Assembly (NCBI GenBank): GCA_014380615.1
Contig: JACMJM010000062.1
Coordinates: forward strand, 1-64,000
Origin: Sphingobacteriaceae bacterium
GTDB lineage: Bacteria > Bacteroidota > Bacteroidia > Sphingobacteriales > Sphingobacteriaceae
Length of the DNA: 64,000 nucleotides
Direction: 5' to 3'
This document shows, piece by piece, positions 41,679 through 51,170 of the stretch. Numbering within the stretch: position 1 is the stretch's first letter; the number at the start of each line of letters is the position of its first letter. The translations under genes were made by a program, and so were the position numbers. The notes under the pieces were generated by a model. That model made no database searches. It saw only the letters and a program-made list of their open reading frames with translations, and was not told the origin of the DNA.

Positions 41679-42089
41679 ATGAAACACGGGCTTATAGCTA
41701 TTATCGATGACGATGAACTTGACAGGCATATTTATAAAAAAATTATCCTGCTAACTTGCCCGTCGTATAAGATAGTAGATTTTTCTAACGGACTGGAGGC
41801 ATTAAATTATATGCGTAAGCACGCTAATGATCCGCTTTTGTTGCCCGACCTTTTGTTGTTAGACGTGCGCATGCCGTATTTAAACGGCTGGCAGTACCTG
41901 GAGCAGTATTGTAAACTAAAACCGAAATTATCTAAGGTTACCCGCCATTATGTATGTTCATCTTCTATCGAGCGTTTTGATATGGAGTTTAAAAACTGCG
42001 ATTTGCACGGGTATTATATGAAGCCGGTAGCACCAAAAGATATTAAGAAAATCGTTTTTGATACCGAGCAGTATAATCAGGCGAGTTAG
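41679..42089 (+). CDS. Single-domain response regulator
   Basis: A 136-aa receiver domain without an output domain. The acidic pocket is IIDDDE (residues 9-13), the phosphoacceptor is Asp62 (LLLLDVRMPYLNG), Ser/Thr of the switch is in YVCSSSI, and the conserved Lys is in YYMKPVAP. The cognate kinase is not adjacent. CheY-like regulators of this type in Bacteroidota often serve phosphorelays or bind partner proteins directly. It stands alone upstream of the TonB-receptor-like gene but is separated from it by 211 bp. Confidence 0.92.
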   Translation: MKHGLIAIIDDDELDRHIYKKIILLTCPSYKIVDFSNGLEALNYMRKHANDPLLLPDLLLLDVRMPYLNGWQYLEQYCKLKPKLSKVTRHYVCSSSIERFDMEFKNCDLHGYYMKPVAPKDIKKIVFDTEQYNQAS

Positions 42090-42163
42090 TTAAATTAAGT
42101 ACACATATTCGTAACATCCCGCTTTTTTTATTTTTAAAAGCAGTTCTTTGGGGCTTTCTCATG

Positions 42164-42234
42164 CAGCCTCCGGCCGCTTTAAGTTTTCCGGATTCTCACC
42201 CGGTAATTTTTCAAATCGACGCGATATGAGGCTG
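42164..42234 (+). promoter_or_regulatory. Possible structured leader upstream of the TonB-receptor-like gene
   Basis: CAGCCTC (42164-42170) pairs with GAGGCTG (42228-42234). Inside, TTxCCGG (42186-42191) pairs with CCGGxAA (42200-42205) around an ATTCTCAC loop. The unit lies 66 bp before the start codon at 42301. The reverse strand contains a GGTGAGAATCCGG run that looks like the cobalamin riboswitch core, but the surrounding conserved elements are missing. Confidence 0.3.
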
Positions 42235-42300
42235 TAACATCTTAATTACCCATCAATTACTTTAAAACATATGGCTTAGCTTCGCAGTACAATAGTACCG

Positions 42301-44937
42301 ATGAAAAAAAATATTACAGTTCTGATCCTTGTTTTTTGTTTACACACGATTGCGGCGAATGCTCAGCTTTTGGTAAAGGGTACAGTTCAAGATTCGAGTG
42401 GCCTGCCACTGCCGGGTGCTATTATAAGGTTAAAGTTTCAGTCGGATAGTATAGCTACAAATGCCGATGTTAACGGGGCCTTTACCTTCAGGAATGTAAA
42501 ATCCTCCGAGTTTACCTTATCCGCATCTTTTATAAGTTTTAAGACTTTTATTAAGCAATATACTTTTGATAAGGTAACGAATGAGATTATTCTACCTCCT
42601 GTAAAGTTAAAAGCCGGCATTAACAACCTAAATGCTGTAATAATAACGGCGGTAACACCTGTAAAAGTAAAAGAAGATACATTAGAGTTTAACGCAAAAT
42701 CTTTCGCGGTGCGCGAGGGTGCTTCGGTTGACGCGGTGTTAAAGAAATTGCCTGGGGTTACAGTAGACAAGAATGGTAATGTAACTACTCAGGGGAAGCC
42801 TATCACGAAAGTTAGGGTTAACGGAAAAGACTTTTTCGGAACCGATGTGGCTACCGCCATTCAAAACTTACCGGCCGATATTGTTAAAAATCTTCAGGTT
42901 ATTGATGATTACGGAGATCAGGCCAAATTAACCGGTATCAAAACTGGCGAGCCGGAGAAAATTTTGAATATCAATATTCAGGAAGATAAGAAGAAAGGAT
43001 ACTTCGCAAGGGGCACCGGGGGAATGGGTAATGAAGAAAGATACATTGCCAGTATGCGGTCGAATTTTTTTAATGGCGAACGCCAGGTTTCTGTAGACGG
43101 ATCTATGAATAATACTAACCTGCGCGGCGGTGGGGGAGACGGCGTTACCAATGTGAAGAACATGGGTGTTAACTATCGTAACAAGTTTGGCAAAACGATA
43201 GCTGTTGATGGGGGTTATAGTATCAGAAACCGTCATAATAATACTCTTGGTACCAGTAATAGTCAGAGTTTAGGCGGCTTCAGCCGTTTAGAAAACCAGA
43301 TAAGCAATAATACCAGTAAAGGTACAAGTCATAATTTTTGGGGAAACATAGAATATAGTATCGACACTTTAAATTACCTCAAAATATCGCCTTACGGTTC
43401 TTTCGAAAACTCAATTAATCGCAACATCGGCACTTCCGATATCATTCAGGGAAATCTTTCCAATTTTAACAGATACTTTGCCAATAATACTTCGGCCGGA
43501 GCCAACTTTGGTACCAGTGTATTCGTTAACCACAAATTTTTGAAACGTGGCCGGAATATTAGCCTGTTTGCGAATATGAATTGGAATAAAGGCGACAGTT
43601 ACAGAGATGAAGATAATAACTATTTAACCGATAGTCTGGGGAAACAAGATTCCCTTAATCAGCATATTCTCGTTGATAACGATAATCGAAACTTCCGCAC
43701 AAATGCTAATCTTTCATACATGGAACCGCTAGGAAAGCAATCTTTTTTGGAACTTAGTTATAACTGGAGCCGGTCTCAAACCGGGTCGTTCAGGGATGCC
43801 CGGGATTTGAAGGCGGGGGTAGAGATTACTAATTTAAATTCAAGCAATAACTTCGAATATAAATTCAGTACCAATAGAATAAGCTTAAACTATCGATATA
43901 TCCATCAAAAATTTAATTATACATTGGGCATTGGCGGGCAGCAAGCTATACTTGAGGGGCAAAATAATTTAAAAAAGGCTGCCGATACGTATAATAAATC
44001 TCTAAACATTGTTCCGGCAGCCCGGTTGGTTTATCGGATGTCAAAGCAGGAATCCCTGTCATTTAACTATAATGGCAGAAATAATCAGCCCGGTTTTAAT
44101 CAATTGCAGCCCATTACAGACAGCACTAATAGAAATAATATCCTAATAGGGAATCCGGATTTGAAACCTGAATTTACACACGGTTTAAACCTCGAGTATA
44201 ATCAGTCTGACTGGAAGAAGGGGCATACCTTTTACGCTAATATTTCGTATAACCAAACCCAAAACAAAATTGTAACCACCAGAAGTCAGACCTCAGGGGA
44301 TACAAGGCAGGTTACCAGCTATACCAATACCGACGGTTTTTACAATATACGAGGGAACTATTCCTACTCCAAGCCATTTTCTGAAAGGAAATATACCTTA
44401 ACCTGGGACGGAGGGGCGAATATGAATAATAACCTGGCTTTTGTAAGTCGAGACGGGGTAAGGGCCCGTAACATAGCTAAAAATTTTATAGTTAACCAGG
44501 GTATCGAATTTGAGATAGACCTTGATGAGATTATCGAACTGGAGTTTAAAACTTCGTATTCGATTAACAATACCCGCTTTTCTCAGGCAAACTCGCCCGA
44601 TAGAAAAACTAATACCTTAGAGTTTCAGCTCGAGGGAGAGAATTATTTCTTTAAGGACCTGACTTTGGGATATAATATCTCAAAACGAATAAATAGGGGC
44701 TTTAATAATTCTGCGGTTCAGAATCCCACAATTGCGAATCTGTTTATGGAATACCGGTTTCTCAAGGGTAACGCAGGCACTATACGGGTTCAGGGGTTCG
44801 ATTTGCTTAATCAAAACACCGGATTACTTATCGACTCTTCATTTGATTACATTGTAGAAAGGCAAACCAACAGGCTCGGAAGGTATTTTCTTATGTCGTT
44901 TGGTTTGCGCCTTAGCAAGTTTGGCGGCGGTAAATAA
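42301..44937 (+). CDS. TonB-dependent-receptor-like outer-membrane barrel
   Basis: An 878-aa protein: signal peptide (1-21, ending ANAQ), carboxypeptidase-like regulatory domain (about 24-108, VKGTVQDSSGLPLPGAIIRL), plug region (about 125-225, with VDAVLKKLPGVTVDKNG and VRVNGKDFFG), and a long beta-barrel to the C-terminus, which ends GLRLSKFGGGK. The family is the outer-membrane beta-barrel group related to TonB receptors; there is no SusD partner adjacent, so it is not a typical polysaccharide-uptake pair. The ligand is unknown. A possible structured leader precedes it. The convergent DUF2147 gene begins at the very next base after its stop. Confidence 0.88.
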   Translation: MKKNITVLILVFCLHTIAANAQLLVKGTVQDSSGLPLPGAIIRLKFQSDSIATNADVNGAFTFRNVKSSEFTLSASFISFKTFIKQYTFDKVTNEIILPPVKLKAGINNLNAVIITAVTPVKVKEDTLEFNAKSFAVREGASVDAVLKKLPGVTVDKNGNVTTQGKPITKVRVNGKDFFGTDVATAIQNLPADIVKNLQVIDDYGDQAKLTGIKTGEPEKILNINIQEDKKKGYFARGTGGMGNEERYIASMRSNFFNGERQVSVDGSMNNTNLRGGGGDGVTNVKNMGVNYRNKFGKTIAVDGGYSIRNRHNNTLGTSNSQSLGGFSRLENQISNNTSKGTSHNFWGNIEYSIDTLNYLKISPYGSFENSINRNIGTSDIIQGNLSNFNRYFANNTSAGANFGTSVFVNHKFLKRGRNISLFANMNWNKGDSYRDEDNNYLTDSLGKQDSLNQHILVDNDNRNFRTNANLSYMEPLGKQSFLELSYNWSRSQTGSFRDARDLKAGVEITNLNSSNNFEYKFSTNRISLNYRYIHQKFNYTLGIGGQQAILEGQNNLKKAADTYNKSLNIVPAARLVYRMSKQESLSFNYNGRNNQPGFNQLQPITDSTNRNNILIGNPDLKPEFTHGLNLEYNQSDWKKGHTFYANISYNQTQNKIVTTRSQTSGDTRQVTSYTNTDGFYNIRGNYSYSKPFSERKYTLTWDGGANMNNNLAFVSRDGVRARNIAKNFIVNQGIEFEIDLDEIIELEFKTSYSINNTRFSQANSPDRKTNTLEFQLEGENYFFKDLTLGYNISKRINRGFNNSAVQNPTIANLFMEYRFLKGNAGTIRVQGFDLLNQNTGLLIDSSFDYIVERQTNRLGRYFLMSFGLRLSKFGGGK

Positions 44938-45381
44938 TTATCTGGCCTCAATTCTCGTCCATGTTTCAGTTTTGCCCAAAATATTTAGTCCAAAGAAGGC
45001 TCGTATATTAAGCTTATTTCCATTATTAATGGTCATTTGGCAATTATAAGTGTTGCCGGTTTTGGGGTCGTATATTTCCCCATTGGCCCAAATACCCTTG
45101 TCTTTATAGATAAAGTCCCGAAGAATCTCAAGTCCTAGTATTGGCCTCGACGTAAGGTTTTTCGAAGGATTATTTACATCGCGTTTTGGCTTTCCAGTTT
45201 CATCATTGGGTTGGTTAAGCCAGACGATTTTTCCGTAATAAAGATCTCCGCGCTTATAAATTTCAATTTGCCCGTTTCCGTGTGCACTTTGCCATTTTCC
45301 TAATATATCATTGGCCGATTGTGCCGCCGCTATATTAGCGATACACACGAGTAAAATATAAATTGTCGATAGCTTGTTCAT
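44938..45381 (-). CDS. DUF2147 exported protein
   Basis: A 147-aa protein from the ATG at 45381 (MNKLSTIYILL); a start at 45423 would add 14 residues before the signal peptide. Residues 1-22 form a signal peptide (ending IAAAQ). The mature part has the DUF2147 pattern ILGKWQSAHGNGQIEIYK, YYGKIVWLNQPND and the C-terminal GLNILGKTETWTR. The family folds as a small lipocalin-like barrel; its function is unknown. It abuts the TonB-receptor-like gene convergently. Confidence 0.88.
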   Translation of the reverse strand: MNKLSTIYILLVCIANIAAAQSANDILGKWQSAHGNGQIEIYKRGDLYYGKIVWLNQPNDETGKPKRDVNNPSKNLTSRPILGLEILRDFIYKDKGIWANGEIYDPKTGNTYNCQMTINNGNKLNIRAFFGLNILGKTETWTRIEAR

Positions 45382-45811
45382 TAAAATATAATTGTTCGTT
45401 AATTGTGATTTCTTTTGTCCCAAAGAGGTTCCTTCAGAATGAGTACATTCTCCTTATGGTTTCATAGTGGTTTTTATCCAAAACGCATTTTCATGCTCTT
45501 ATCGCATAATAATTACTACTTACTTGCGATTTTGTTTTCAGAAAAGCCAGAGTTGTAATTTGTAAATGTTGGCGGGCCTGGTTAATCAAGCTTTACTAAT
45601 GGCTGCTATTACAATAATCTTAATGTTTAATTTCATGAAAAATGCAAGCTGCGGTTATATTTTTTAGTCGTATTTGCTACTGGGAACCCACTAAGGGCAT
45701 ATTGACAGAATTTATCATATTTAAAGGCACATATTAATAGTTAAGCAGGAAACTATACTGAGAAATTGATTCGCTGTTTGTATATTGCTTTTGTTTGGAT
45801 CATGTTTAACA
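45382..45811. other. 430-bp non-coding gap upstream of the signalling cluster
   Basis: Between the divergent DUF2147 and acyltransferase genes no coding sequence, tRNA or strong terminator is evident. It probably holds both promoters; a TTTG-rich stretch at about 45774-45796 is the best candidate for the downstream one but does not match TAnnTTTG exactly. Confidence 0.5.
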
Positions 45812-46627
45812 ATGGACGGCAGCCTCAATAAAGAAAAACCTGTTGTAATACTTAGAGCTTTTAGGGCTATAGACGACCCCGAGGCGTGCAGGTTATTTTT
45901 AGAAGGCCATGCTCATGTTTTAACAAGTATCGGAATAACAAAAGTTACATCTTCTAAAGACGAATGGACAACCAATCCGGCCGCTTTTGTCCTTATTGTC
46001 GAATCACTGGATCGAACGAAAGTATATGGAGGGGCAAGGGTACATGTTGCCGGGGGAAATGCGCCACTTCCAATTGAAGATGCTACGGGTGCTATAGATT
46101 CTTCGATTTACGATATTATTTGGGAATACGCACGGCAAGGTACAGGTGAGCTTTGCGGTTTGTGGAATTCGAGAGAGATAGCTGGTTATGGCATCGGGAG
46201 TATTTTTCTGATAAGGGCGGCTGTCGCTATTTCTTACCAGATCGGTTTGCAATCGCTGTTCGCTTTATGCGCCCCGTATACCATAAAACCCGGCGAATGC
46301 GTTGGCATGGAACTAGAGGGGAGGGTTGGGAACCAGGGCACATTTTATTACCCAAAGCTTGATTTATTGGCTACTACTATGGTGGTGAAGGATGTTCCGG
46401 TTTTGAGTAAAGCGCATCCTGAGGATAAAGAGGCGATATTCAAAATCAGAGAGAATTTGAATATTATCCGCCTGGAAGAACTCCGCAGAAAAGAAATCAC
46501 TATACACTATGAAACTAAGATAGAAAATCTCGACAAGTGGGATTTGCAGGACGCTATAGCAAACGCAAAAGAAAATCTTCTTAAATTTAAAGGGAAACCA
46601 GATGAGACTGATATAAATTTTCTTTAA
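45812..46627 (+). CDS. GNAT-fold acyltransferase, autoinducer-synthase-like
   Basis: A 271-aa protein from the ATG at 45812 (MDGSLNKEKPVVILRAFRA); a TTG at 45785 would add nine residues. The core fits an N-acyltransferase fold: ILRAFRAIDDPEACRLFLEG at the start, VYGGARVHV in strand 4, ELCGLWNSREIAGYGIGSIFLIRAAVAISYQIG in the CoA-binding region and a later LDLLATTMVVKD strand. The order of an E-L-x-x-L-W strand, a G-x-G-x-G/S turn and a long helix is like LuxI/FeeM-type acyl-amino-acid and acyl-homoserine-lactone synthases. About 60 residues of charged helix follow. It starts a plus-strand run with a methyltransferase (14 bp) and histidine kinase, so a diffusible signal is suggested. Both the substrate and this role are inference. 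Confidence 0.7.
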   Translation: MDGSLNKEKPVVILRAFRAIDDPEACRLFLEGHAHVLTSIGITKVTSSKDEWTTNPAAFVLIVESLDRTKVYGGARVHVAGGNAPLPIEDATGAIDSSIYDIIWEYARQGTGELCGLWNSREIAGYGIGSIFLIRAAVAISYQIGLQSLFALCAPYTIKPGECVGMELEGRVGNQGTFYYPKLDLLATTMVVKDVPVLSKAHPEDKEAIFKIRENLNIIRLEELRRKEITIHYETKIENLDKWDLQDAIANAKENLLKFKGKPDETDINFL

Positions 46628-46641
46628 TAACATACAACATC

Positions 46642-47406
46642 ATGCCTGATAAACATTATGACAGTGCCTATCTGGAAGACACCGGCAGGGCTTTAAAAAA
46701 CATTAAGGAACAATCGTATACTGCCTTTAAACAAATAGAACAAGGTGTAATTATTGATTTAGGTTGCGGTACGGGTTTAGATGCCCATCGATTAACCGAG
46801 ATCACACCCGAAAGCGTAAAGGTTGTAGGAATAGATCATGATGCCGATATGCTGAATAAAGCAAAACTCGATGCTGCTGATACAGAAAGGCTGGAGTTTA
46901 TACTTTCTGAAGCCTGTCCTTTAGATTTTGATAATAATTCTATTTCGGGATTACGTTCCGAGAGAATGATTCAACATCTTGCCGAACCCGAAAAGGTGGT
47001 AGAAGAAATTTACCGGGTGCTTCATGAAAATGCTCCCCTTGTTATTGTCGAAACAGATTGGCGTAGCTTGTCTTTTTATACCGGCCATCCTTCGATTGAG
47101 AAAAAAGTAAATGACTATTTAACAGAAGTAAAAGTTAAGAACGGGACGGCAGCACGCAACCTAACAACTTACTTAAATAGAATAAAGTTTAGTAATATTA
47201 CGCTCGAAGTATGCCCCGTTGTATTAAGATCCATTAAAGAAGCAAACGATTATTTATGGTTTGAAAAAATACTGAATGAAGCTGCACATTTAGGATACGT
47301 TACTGAACAAGAAAGAGATAAGTTTTATGATAACTTAAAGCTTGCAGATCATTTAAAGTACTTTGTTTGCGCTATCAATTTAGTAATTGTTACCTGTAAT
47401 AAATAA
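46642..47406 (+). CDS. SAM-dependent class I methyltransferase
   Basis: A 254-aa cytoplasmic protein. The SAM-binding motif I is DLGCGTG (39-45), motif II is VVGIDHDADML (71-81), and motif IV-like SISGLRSERMIQHL is the position normally read as YDLI..R..L. The C-terminal part is unlike a DNA methylase, so small-molecule or lipid methylation is likely. It lies 14 bp after the acyltransferase and 5 bp before the 7TM kinase, which indicates one transcript. The context suggests that the acylated product is methylated. Confidence 0.85.
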   Translation: MPDKHYDSAYLEDTGRALKNIKEQSYTAFKQIEQGVIIDLGCGTGLDAHRLTEITPESVKVVGIDHDADMLNKAKLDAADTERLEFILSEACPLDFDNNSISGLRSERMIQHLAEPEKVVEEIYRVLHENAPLVIVETDWRSLSFYTGHPSIEKKVNDYLTEVKVKNGTAARNLTTYLNRIKFSNITLEVCPVVLRSIKEANDYLWFEKILNEAAHLGYVTEQERDKFYDNLKLADHLKYFVCAINLVIVTCNK

Positions 47407-47411
47407 TAAAT

Positions 47412-49559
47412 ATGAGCAAAAACTTCAATCTTTTATTTGTCATTTTACTATGCTTTCTGAATGTTGAGGGCAATACCATCATAGCAGATTCTAAAAAGAC
47501 AAAATTATTTGGGAAAGATTTATGGATATTAAAAAGCCAGGGGGAGATAACTTTTGATCAGGTTCTAAAATCAAAAGATTTTAAACAAAATACACAAGAA
47601 GTGCCCAATCTGGGGATATCTGCATCAAGTGTTTGGCTGAGGTTTGAACTAACTAATCACAATGCAAAATCTAACCTTTTGTTGCATGTTGCTTACCCCA
47701 TCTTAGATGAGGTAGAGTTATATATTCCGGGAAAAAACGGAGGCTATAAAAGCATGTTGTTAGGAGAGATTAAGAAGTTTGAAGAACGGAAATTTCAGCA
47801 CCCTGACTATATTTTTAATTTAGACATCAGCGAAAATGAAACTAAAACATACTACCTGCGAGTCAAAAGTGCCGAGCATCTAATTCTCCCGATTTCTATA
47901 AGTCAGTCAACTTATCTCTGGGAGGGATTAAGTAAAGAAAATGTTATTACGGGGATTTTTTTAGGGGCGGTAGTGATAATGTTTTTATACAACCTGTTTA
48001 TCTTTTTTTCTGTTAAAGACAAAAGTTATTTTTATTATGTAATTTACGTTGCATCAGTAGGGTTTACCCAAATAGGAATCAAGGGCTTTACATTTCAGTA
48101 TTTATGGCCAAACAGTCCGGCATTCGAGCTTAAAAGTGTGATTCTTTTCGCCTGTATTAGTGGTATCGCAGCCCTGTTATTTACACAAAACTTCCTTCAT
48201 ACAAAACAAACGGCTAAAAAGTCGCATATTTTCATGCATGTCATTATAGCCTTGTTAGTAATTTCATTTGTAGCCACAAGTTTTGGCTTTGAGCAATTTG
48301 GTTTTCAATTAATGCAAGTCACAACCAGTATTTTTGCCATAACTATTTTGGTTGTTTCTTTCTTAGTTATGCGTGATGGATACGCACCCGCCCGATTTGT
48401 TTTTTCTTCCTGGTCTGTTTTGTTATTTGGAGCTATAATTTTTGCTCTTAAAGATTATAGTATTTTGCCTTATAATACATTCACCAGTTATTCTATGCAG
48501 GGAGCCTCGGTAATCGAAATGGCTTTACTATCCTTCGGTCTTGCAGACAGGATAAACATTCTTAAAAAGGAAAAAGAAGCTTCACAGGCCCAGGCACTGG
48601 CGGTAGCAAAAGAAAACGAGCGCATTATCAGGGAGCAAAATGTGGTGTTAGAATCTAAAGTTAAAGAGCGGACAGTAGAGCTGGAAGCTTCAAATAGTGA
48701 ATTAAGCACAACTTTAGACGATCTTAAACAGGCACAAATGCAGTTAGTCGAGTCAGAAAAAATGGCTTCCCTCGGACAGCTTACTGCTGGTATTGCGCAT
48801 GAAATAAATAACCCCATAAACTTTGTAACCTCCAATGTCGCCCCGCTTCAGCGAGATGTTAATATTTTGATTGACGCGATTTCTACTATGGAAAATTTCA
48901 GTACTTCGGGCGATTCGGTGGAAGAGAAGCAAAAACAAATTGAGGATTATAAAGAGGAAATCGACTATGATTATTTGAAAATTGAGATTTCACATCTTCT
49001 AAAGGGAATTAACGAAGGTGCGTCGCGTACGGCCGAAATAGTAAAAGGACTAAGGGTGTTTTCAAGATTAGATGAAGATGATTTGAAAGTGGCCGATATT
49101 CACGAAGGACTTGAGTCGACGCTGGTTATAGCGAATAACCTTTTGAACGGAATTAAAGTTACTAAAGATTACTCGGAGCTTCCGATGATAGAATCTTATC
49201 CTGGAAAATTGAATCAGGTATTCCTGAATATATTGTCGAACGCAACTCATGCAATTAATAAAAGGTACGGTGAAGGCTCGGGCCAGGGCGAACTGATTAT
49301 TAAAACTATGCGTAACGAGAACCATCTTTTAATTAGTATTGCTGATAACGGGACTGGCATGGACGAGAATACCCAAAAGAAAATATTTGAGCCTTTTTTT
49401 ACAACTAAGGATGTTGGTGAAGGCACAGGTTTAGGGATGTCTATAGCCTATAATACAATTAAAAGGCATAACGGAACTCTCGTTGTAAAATCTCAGGCGG
49501 GCAAAGGTTCAGAATTTATTATAGATTTACCCATCACAAAGAAAATAAGTGAAACTTAA
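47412..49559 (+). CDS. 7TMR-DISM histidine kinase
   Basis: A 715-aa sensor. Residues 1-20 are a signal sequence; 30-165 match the extracellular 7TMR-DISMED2 sugar-/small-molecule-binding domain (SSVWLRFELTNHN, LLLHVAYPILDEVELY); 180-380 hold seven transmembrane helices; 385-450 are a coiled coil; the HisKA box has His463 (TAGIAHEINNPINF); and the ATPase domain has N, G1 (ADNGTGMD) and G2 (GTGLGMS) boxes near the end. The pattern is a membrane receptor that autophosphorylates in response to an extracellular ligand. It lies 5 bp after the methyltransferase, so the signal-making and sensing genes are probably coupled. Confidence 0.93.
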   Translation: MSKNFNLLFVILLCFLNVEGNTIIADSKKTKLFGKDLWILKSQGEITFDQVLKSKDFKQNTQEVPNLGISASSVWLRFELTNHNAKSNLLLHVAYPILDEVELYIPGKNGGYKSMLLGEIKKFEERKFQHPDYIFNLDISENETKTYYLRVKSAEHLILPISISQSTYLWEGLSKENVITGIFLGAVVIMFLYNLFIFFSVKDKSYFYYVIYVASVGFTQIGIKGFTFQYLWPNSPAFELKSVILFACISGIAALLFTQNFLHTKQTAKKSHIFMHVIIALLVISFVATSFGFEQFGFQLMQVTTSIFAITILVVSFLVMRDGYAPARFVFSSWSVLLFGAIIFALKDYSILPYNTFTSYSMQGASVIEMALLSFGLADRINILKKEKEASQAQALAVAKENERIIREQNVVLESKVKERTVELEASNSELSTTLDDLKQAQMQLVESEKMASLGQLTAGIAHEINNPINFVTSNVAPLQRDVNILIDAISTMENFSTSGDSVEEKQKQIEDYKEEIDYDYLKIEISHLLKGINEGASRTAEIVKGLRVFSRLDEDDLKVADIHEGLESTLVIANNLLNGIKVTKDYSELPMIESYPGKLNQVFLNILSNATHAINKRYGEGSGQGELIIKTMRNENHLLISIADNGTGMDENTQKKIFEPFFTTKDVGEGTGLGMSIAYNTIKRHNGTLVVKSQAGKGSEFIIDLPITKKISET

Positions 49560-49668
49560 TTATTTTCTTTGTGGTATAAACCGCTTACATCTGTCTGTTA
49601 CTTATGGGATTAAAAAAATAATTATAATGGATGAAATTAGTGAAAGCCATTGTTAAGCCAGTTTAGAA

Positions 49669-50754
49669 ATGTCCGAAAAAATTAAGATTTTATATGTTGA
49701 CGATGAGGTGAATAACCTTGTGGGCTTTAAGGCGTCATTCAGGCTTGACTACGATATACTTGTAGCCGAAAATACTTCCCTGGCTGTAGAAATACTTACT
49801 AAGCATTCGGATATTAGAATAATCTTTTGCGATCAGCGGATGCCTGATAAAACCGGCGTTGAGTTTTTCGAAGAAATCCGAAGCTGGTTCCCTCATCCCA
49901 TACGGATTCTTATAACGGGATATACCGATATTGAGGCTGTAATTAGTGCTATAAACCGGGGCCATATTTTTCGTTATGTAAAAAAGCCTTGGGCAGATGC
50001 TGATATTATTTCGGCGATAGAAGAGGCGCACAAGTTTTTTACAGCCAATACTCTGCTTGCGATTAAAAACGAAGAATTGCAAAAGGCTTACAATGAACTG
50101 GATAAATTCGCCTACAGTGTAAGTCATGATATCAGGGGCCCTTTATCGGGATTAATGGGAGCTATAAAAGTGGTGAAGCATTTAGATAGTGTTTCTGAAA
50201 TTAAAGAGATGCTTTCACTTATGGAGAACTCGGTAAAAAAACTGGATACTTTTATTTTGAGTATGCACGATTATTATACTTTACAGCGGGGAGAGCTTCG
50301 AATTAAAGAGATTGATATAGAACAGGTTCTGGCAGATTTAAAAGATATTCATCATGCTAATATAGCGGCTAATAACGTAGATTTTACTGTCAATATAAAC
50401 CAGCTTGAGCCTTTCTGGTGTGATGAAATTACCTTAAAACTTATCCTCAACAATCTCATCTCCAATGCTATAAAGTATCAGAAGCAAGGTAATGAGAATA
50501 AGTGGATCGAGCTAAATATCGAGATAGGGAAGGGGCAGGCCACTATTTATGTTAAAGATAACGGGATAGGAATTCCGGAGAATTATCTCAGTGAAATATT
50601 TAACCTCTTTTTCAGAGCCAGCACACAGGATGCCGGATCAGGATTTGGCTTATATAATGTTAAGGATGCTTTGTTGAAACTGAATGGTGGTATAAAAGTA
50701 AGTTCTGTTTTGGGCGAGGGTGCGGTATTTAAGGTTACAATTCCTAATAAATAA
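49669..50754 (+). CDS. Receiver-histidine kinase hybrid
   Basis: A 361-aa cytoplasmic protein. A receiver domain (residues 1-120) has the acidic pair DD at 11-12, the phosphoacceptor Asp55 (FCDQRMPDKTGVEF) and Lys in VKKPW. A HisKA domain has His153 (YSVSHDIRGPLSG), followed by an ATPase domain with a DNGIGIPENY G1 box and GSGFGLYNV G2 box. The receiver at the N-terminus suggests it acts in a phosphorelay below the 7TM kinase. It follows that gene by 109 bp, and the next receiver overlaps its stop by one base. Confidence 0.93.
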   Translation: MSEKIKILYVDDEVNNLVGFKASFRLDYDILVAENTSLAVEILTKHSDIRIIFCDQRMPDKTGVEFFEEIRSWFPHPIRILITGYTDIEAVISAINRGHIFRYVKKPWADADIISAIEEAHKFFTANTLLAIKNEELQKAYNELDKFAYSVSHDIRGPLSGLMGAIKVVKHLDSVSEIKEMLSLMENSVKKLDTFILSMHDYYTLQRGELRIKEIDIEQVLADLKDIHHANIAANNVDFTVNINQLEPFWCDEITLKLILNNLISNAIKYQKQGNENKWIELNIEIGKGQATIYVKDNGIGIPENYLSEIFNLFFRASTQDAGSGFGLYNVKDALLKLNGGIKVSSVLGEGAVFKVTIPNK

Positions 50755-51170
50755 TGAAAATAAAGCAGGCTAATTTTATAATTGTTGACGATAGTGAGCT
50801 GGATTGTTTTATCGCCGAAAAACTGGTGAAACATTCTGGAATGAGCAACAAAGTTATAAGTTTCTTAAGGGCTGAAGACGCTCTGGATTTTGTTAAGGGA
50901 AACCCGTTTCCGACAGACCAGATGCTTACCGTTATATTGCTCGATATTTTGATGCCGATTATGAGTGGGATAGATTTTGTTGAAGAATTTGAAAAATTAC
51001 CCGCCGATGTACAGAAAAAATATATAATCGTAGCCTTTACTTCCTCGATGAATAAAAAAGACATGGCTACTATGCAAAGTTTTAAATCAGTAAAGTGCCT
51101 TTACGACAAGCCTCTTAGCCCGGAGGTGTTATCAACTTTATTAGATGATACCGTTTTGTTTCCTGAATAA
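50754..51170 (+). CDS. Single-domain response regulator of the signalling cluster
   Basis: A 138-aa receiver with the start inside the TAA of the preceding kinase (TAATGA, one-base overlap), so translation is coupled. The acidic pair is VDDSE (11-14), the phosphoacceptor is Asp64 (ILLDILMPIMSG) and the Lys is in LYDKPLSP. There is no DNA-binding domain, so the output must be by protein interaction or by passing the phosphate on. It faces the 154-aa receiver gene at a gap of 2 bp. Confidence 0.93.
   Translation: MKIKQANFIIVDDSELDCFIAEKLVKHSGMSNKVISFLRAEDALDFVKGNPFPTDQMLTVILLDILMPIMSGIDFVEEFEKLPADVQKKYIIVAFTSSMNKKDMATMQSFKSVKCLYDKPLSPEVLSTLLDDTVLFPE

Follow-up and report, generated by a model that had tools for sequence, protein, structure and literature searches.

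A conserved gene cluster of Bacteroidota that probably makes and senses a fatty-acyl amino acid signal

Introduction

Oxazolone pathways of Mycobacterium, Rhodococcus and Pseudoalteromonas (TrzAS, TyzACB and OxzAB) pair an N-acyltransferase of the FeeM fold with a ThiF or ThiF-nitroreductase enzyme. The N-acyltransferase TrzA supplies N-acyl-tryptophan to TrzS (Rv1355c), a tryptazolone synthase that adenylates, cyclises and desaturates it to tryptazolone (PMC12856293). A gene cluster with related enzymes is described here from a Sphingobacteriaceae bacterium (contig JACMJM010000062.1, positions 1 to 64,000; this stretch of 64,000 nucleotides is called the window). It encodes an acyltransferase with the FeeM fold, a methyltransferase, a receptor kinase of the 7TMR-DISM class, a protein with receiver (REC), HisKA and HATPase domains (the REC-kinase) and single-domain receivers. 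The cluster is conserved in Bacteroidota, where its probable role is both to produce and to sense a small fatty-acyl amino acid signal. Unlike in the oxazolone pathways, the enzymes are here accompanied without exception by a 7TMR-DISM kinase and receivers. The window has a methyltransferase in place of ThiF, and its acyltransferase shows hardly any sequence similarity to TrzA-like proteins, that is, those encoded beside TrzS-like genes on actinobacterial plasmids and assigned by gene neighbourhood.

Three further groups of known systems resemble the cluster in part. With the LuxI-type acyl-homoserine lactone (AHL) synthases and FeeM, the first protein shares its fold and leading structural matches, but it does not match the LuxI family, and its partner is a membrane kinase instead of LuxR. 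The agr systems form pherotypes, in which the signal-modifying gene and the N-terminal membrane sensor vary together and the kinase part is conserved. The comQXPA pherotypes co-vary in the same way (ComP: PMC4008528), a likeness for which homology is not claimed; the cluster differs from both in using small-molecule acyl amino acid enzymes, not a peptide, in exchanging a whole enzyme class, and in belonging to Bacteroidota. The phcBSRQ genes of Ralstonia, which serve quorum sensing by methyl 3-hydroxy fatty acids, encode a methyltransferase, a sensor kinase, a REC-plus-kinase protein without a DNA-binding domain and a receiver (PMC8578825), and the window has the same order. Here too the likeness is one of order, not of claimed homology, and the cluster adds an N-acyl amino acid synthase and has a 7TMR-DISM sensor. 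A search for PhcR relatives in plasmids returned generic REC-kinases only. No earlier description of the Bacteroidota cluster was found in the open-access literature, subscription papers, including the original OxzAB report, being outside the search.

Joint exchange of enzyme and sensor

Relatives of the acyltransferase occupy 373 stretches in the genome collection; the 80 nearest of these were analysed, together with some distant genomes. The second enzyme takes three forms, represented among the 85 loci of the type analyses by a methyltransferase (19 loci, window included), a ThiF-like protein of about 365 aa (34 loci) and a ThiF-nitroreductase fusion of about 765 aa (32 loci). In all 85, residues 1 to about 400 of the receptor, its sensory part, separate without exception by methyltransferase versus ThiF, and not by the phylogeny of their neighbours. 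Between methyltransferase and ThiF, the sensor tree needs at least 1 change, the acyltransferase tree 14, the kinase-domain tree 12 and the REC-kinase tree 11. The trees were built quickly and many of their branches are weak; the figures, which are minima, are therefore only roughly right, but the contrast holds. Shuffled labels on the acyltransferase tree gave a mean of 17.3 changes and a minimum of 14. With long or distant rows removed, the changes were 1 (sensor), 11 (acyltransferase) and 10 (kinase), and with all three types distinguished they were 5, 19 and 21, respectively. The methyltransferase rows form a single clade in the sensor tree (support 99), an arrangement that was rejected for the acyltransferase (approximately unbiased test, p-AU 1e-45) and for the kinase domain (p-AU 8e-4).

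Identity in the 7TM part is 43-97% among methyltransferase loci and 25-46% between methyltransferase and ThiF loci, and the identities of acyltransferase and kinase show no difference by enzyme type. For example, two Sphingobacterium loci, one with the methyltransferase (L111) and one with ThiF (L096), are 83% identical in the acyltransferase, 81% in the kinase domain and 27% in the sensor. Three Mucilaginibacter-type loci, one per enzyme type, are 74-76%, 77-81% and 33-41% identical in the acyltransferase, kinase and sensor. Along the receptor, the identity of same-type loci is in excess by 4 to 36 points as far as residue 400; beyond it the excess is about zero, a sharp border that coincides with the end of the 7TM. 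Between the closest discordant pairs, blastn showed DNA homology that breaks off where the acyltransferase gene ends and restarts in the kinase part. Residues fixed by type (131, 189, 305, 337, 365 and 376) lie in DISMED2 and mostly in the 7TM. Within each of the three types, enzyme and sensor distances correlate beyond those of acyltransferase and kinase, with partial rho of 0.61, 0.24 and 0.64. Co-switching and the position of the border are computed results, as are the fold, the gene order and the three enzyme types.

The tree contrast (1 versus 14 versus 12) and the border at the end of the 7TM indicate that enzyme and sensor travel together as a matched cassette, the acyltransferase and the kinase around them staying constant. 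This is the pherotype pattern, with signal enzyme and sensor domain co-varying against a conserved kinase. A preliminary description of this DNA had proposed that one operon makes and perceives a methylated acyl compound, and had regarded independent phylogenies of its genes as an argument against a common signal. The genes indeed do not share a single tree, yet the pattern favours the idea, with enzyme and sensor switching together while acyltransferase and kinase stay.

The acyltransferase

The first protein has no match in Pfam (up to E 0.1), including the LuxI family PF00765, nor in NCBIfam, PHROGs or PADLOC, and sequence searches against the PDB gave chance matches only. Its AlphaFold2 model, based on 69 aligned sequences, has a predicted local distance difference test (pLDDT) score of 87.4. 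When this model was compared with the PDB by Foldseek, the N-acyl amino acid synthase FeeM (2g0b) ranked first, with an E-value of 1.8e-7 and a template modelling (TM) score of 0.73 on the target; after it came CoA-dependent AHL synthases, with BjaI, RpaI and MesI in the next ranks and LasI and EsaI in lower ones. FeeM and BjaI are also the closest structures to TyzA, which acts as N-acyltransferase in the tyrazolone pathway of M. tuberculosis (PMC10404671). The preliminary description had called the protein autoinducer-synthase-like: the FeeM/AHL-synthase fold was borne out, membership of the LuxI family was not, and because PF00765 is unmatched, N-acyl amino acid synthase-like (FeeM/TyzA/TrzA type) is the better label. 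The protein is a predicted N-acyl amino acid synthase. The ATG start gives 271 aa, and the relatives' proteins share the same start point. A protein 87% identical to it is encoded by Paradesertivirga mongoliensis (Sphingobacteriaceae), near which the window's genome belongs and with which it was grouped in one genus. No relative is encoded in any plasmid record searched, and a GNAT protein beside ThiF in Streptomyces (L145) was rejected as a family member, having no match to the acyltransferase profile.

The second enzyme

Against NCBIfam NF005901 ("Rv1355c family"), the ThiF-nitroreductase fusion reaches 783 bits, well over the cut-off of 476, and the ThiF-only protein falls just under it at 473.5 bits. 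The ThiF catalytic residues (GxSVG, R173, K185, D232) are conserved in 70 Bacteroidota sequences. By the score of the fusion and by these residues, the relatives encode predicted oxazolone synthetases of the TrzS/OxzB kind. In the window, the place beside the acyltransferase is taken by a methyltransferase, with no ThiF adenylating domain there and no TrzS/OxzB orthologue in the genome. No TrzS orthologue was found elsewhere in the methyltransferase-type genomes, and the methyltransferase therefore truly occupies the TrzS/ThiF slot. Its AlphaFold2 model (pLDDT 91.2) matches many class I enzymes in Foldseek, including 3mgg, LahSB and JHAMT, the last two of which are carboxyl methyltransferases. 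Carboxyl methylation is probable, mainly from the position of the gene. The preliminary description had named a methylated acyl compound; besides methylation, two other finishing chemistries are used with this acyltransferase.

It is possible, if doubtful, that the methyltransferase modifies the aromatic ring or another site of the acyl amino acid and that the free acid is kept, a variant that is compatible with signalling. For Stieleria, the tyrosine ring is considered the likely target of methyltransferases encoded close to N-acyl amino acid synthases (PMC12479983), and matches to the class I fold are unspecific. The enzyme nevertheless lies exactly at the position of the carboxylate-activating ThiF, in genomes that lack a TrzS orthologue; moreover, a C-terminal carboxyl methyltransferase, LahSB, ranks third among its matches, which also include JHAMT.

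Several variants of the second enzyme were observed among the loci. Two ThiF-only enzymes (L093:8056-9180 and L114:6860-7990) accompany sensors that fall inside the ThiF-nitroreductase sensor clade, probably through recent loss of the nitroreductase domain, and provide a natural test of whether a sensor of that type accepts the saturated product. One ThiF-nitroreductase gene (L035:7358-9666) lies in two overlapping frames, possibly by a frameshift or sequencing error. Outside Bacteroidota, a plasmid of Streptomyces sp. NBC_01431 (L144:4179-6047) encodes a GNAT-looking N-terminal domain, read by eye, fused to ThiF, and a ketoacyl-ACP synthase III (KAS III) gene follows it; this is a possible acyltransferase-cyclase fusion. 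An anti-phage reading was discarded, PADLOC matches being weak and generic only (methyltransferase to mads_2, ThiF to E1-E2).

Conservation and layout of the cluster

Acyltransferase, second enzyme and 7TMR-DISM kinase adjoin in 77 of 77 Bacteroidota loci with enough flank, so that the association is far beyond chance. With this result and 373 relatives, the gene order to which the preliminary description drew attention is conserved and not unique to one genome. Among the same 77 loci, the REC-kinase is present in 71 and the 138-aa receiver in 47, and the 154-aa receiver lies near 75. The latter, on the opposite strand in the window, is part of the conserved block. In three Taibaiella loci (L098, L103 and L108), in which the REC-kinase was not found, it comes immediately after the DISM kinase and in the same orientation, which suggests that it is the core partner. 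The acyltransferase is found in 10 of 141 sampled genera of Bacteroidota and in 23 of 41 relatives' genomes, with one match in each positive genome. A close DISM sensor (at least 178 bits) accompanies it in all 23, and scores are at most 138 bits in the negatives. A record named Flavihumibacter soli R14 (L042) carries a cluster very close to that of the window.

The features are listed in Table 1. The coordinates and strands of the preliminary description, the spacing of 14 bp between acyltransferase and methyltransferase and of 5 bp between methyltransferase and DISM kinase, and the one-base overlap of the REC-kinase and 138-aa receiver genes are correct to the base; absent from it were the gap of 109 bp between the DISM kinase and REC-kinase genes and the 154-aa receiver. 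Its domain assignments for the methyltransferase, REC-kinase and receiver were confirmed by Pfam, as was the 7TMR-DISM kinase, with DISMED2, 7TM and HisKA/HATPase. The His and Asp phosphorylation motifs of the cluster proteins are intact, that of the receptor kinase being HEINNP with H463.

Table 1. Features of the cluster, with positions in the window and the basis of each assignment
Feature	Position	Strand	Basis
Predicted N-acyl amino acid synthase, FeeM/LuxI-fold GNAT, 271 aa	45812-46627	+	AlphaFold2 model, Foldseek
Class I S-adenosylmethionine (SAM)-dependent methyltransferase, 254 aa, predicted capping enzyme	46642-47406	+	Pfam Methyltransf_25/11, AlphaFold2, Foldseek
7TMR-DISM receptor kinase, whole gene	47412-49559	+	Pfam 7TMR-DISMED2, 7TMR-DISM_7TM, HisKA, HATPase_c
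Receptor sensory part, 7TMR-DISMED2 and 7TM, residues 1-400	47412-48611	+	Pfam; co-switches with enzyme type
Receptor coiled coil, HisKA and HATPase_c	48612-49559	+	Pfam; type signal absent beyond residue 400
REC-HisKA-HATPase protein, 361 aa, PhcR-like architecture	49669-50754	+	Pfam Response_reg, HisKA, HATPase_c
Single-domain receiver, 138 aa	50754-51170	+	Pfam Response_reg
Single-domain receiver, 154 aa	51173-51637	-	Pfam

Upstream, at 41679-45423, the window encodes a receiver, an outer-membrane-type protein and a DUF2147 protein. These genes are syntenic in the nearest relative (L021/L041) and not in other loci, and are therefore probably outside the system. Farther away, the stretch 5034-25227 encodes a series of large proteins, of up to 1738 aa, in which few domains were recognised, namely fn3 in two of them and a BppL_N-like match in one of 1406 aa; they are possibly surface or fibre-like proteins.

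Proposed pathway and alternative explanations

To judge from its fold and its partner enzymes, the acyltransferase would couple an acyl group to an amino acid. The second enzyme would then mask the free carboxylate, as a methyl ester in the window genome and as an oxazolone ring in relatives, saturated with ThiF and unsaturated with the fused nitroreductase domain. The DISMED2/7TM part of the receptor kinase would sense the finished molecule, and the phosphoryl group would pass from the receptor kinase to the REC-kinase, to the single receivers and on to targets. Relatives that carry different cassettes should not hear each other, since enzyme and sensory half are apparently inherited as a matched cassette. 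The idea in the preliminary description, a compound that would serve as a signal to the cluster's own kinase, is supported, and the cluster is likely to be a module for signal synthesis and perception in which a capped N-acyl amino acid is read by a matched receptor. Somewhat less securely, the data favour a previously undescribed family of cell-cell signalling in Bacteroidota, in which methyl esters and oxazolones of N-acyl amino acids, the capped forms, would be private signals that can replace one another, and capping enzyme and 7TM sensory half would be the pherotype cassette.

Several points weigh against a signalling module of this kind. In the profile comparison with TrzA-like proteins, 171 columns align collinearly, but the match is weak (hhalign, pairwise E 0.016 at a probability of 2.8%), and the structural matches of the methyltransferase are generic. 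The conserved genes of the cluster include neither an exporter nor a DNA-binding output. Substrate, product, ligand, chemistry, secretion and output are inferred. In addition, enzyme and sensor are neighbours flanked by two conserved stretches, and recombination in these flanks could move them together without a functional match and could explain part of the co-switching.

A rather unlikely explanation is autoregulation of a secreted metabolite, in which the N-acyl amino acid or oxazolone has a different function (as an antimicrobial, a surfactant, a redox compound or a membrane lipid) and the kinase tracks its level or its damage, with no role in cell-cell communication. N-acyl tyrosines of Stieleria have been discussed as antimicrobial and oxazolones as stress-linked (PMC12856293). 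Co-switching does not separate this explanation from communication, because both need a matched sensor. However, no resistance gene or transporter is kept beside the enzymes, the conserved parts being those of signalling only, including two to three receivers, and a pherotype-like alternation of chemistries inside one genus is more typical of signals.

It is less probable still that linkage explains everything, so that recombination between the conserved acyltransferase and kinase stretches swaps whatever intervenes and no enzyme-sensor match is needed. The blastn homology of the closest discordant pairs, which reaches the end of the acyltransferase gene and returns at the kinase part, is what such recombination would leave. 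Against this, the 85 loci hold no mismatch between methyltransferase or ThiF and sensor despite 14 switches on the acyltransferase tree, the three-type counts for the sensor are far below those for its neighbours, and loci ordered ThiF-acyltransferase-DISM have a ThiF-type sensor although enzyme and sensor lie apart. With 10-14 switches free of any such mismatch and with the correlation within types, co-switching exceeds linkage. Finally, an ordinary two-component system beside unrelated enzymes is hardly credible, common as DISM kinases are in Bacteroidota, for enzyme and receptor stay together in all 77 loci across families and the orthologous sensor is missing from acyltransferase-negative relatives.

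Significance

Little is known of small-molecule signalling in Bacteroidota, and the cluster, if the proposal of a capped N-acyl amino acid signal is true, would represent a private chemical language new for this group. Oxazolones would likewise get their first defined biological role, which the TrzAS paper regards as a major unresolved question (PMC12856293). With a conserved receptor locked to the enzymes, this question can be put to a direct test in soil bacteria that are not pathogens. Because enzyme and sensor are exchanged as a matched pair, comparison alone also places the ligand-reading part of a 7TMR-DISM receptor within residues 1 to about 400, in a class of receptors few of whose ligands are known.

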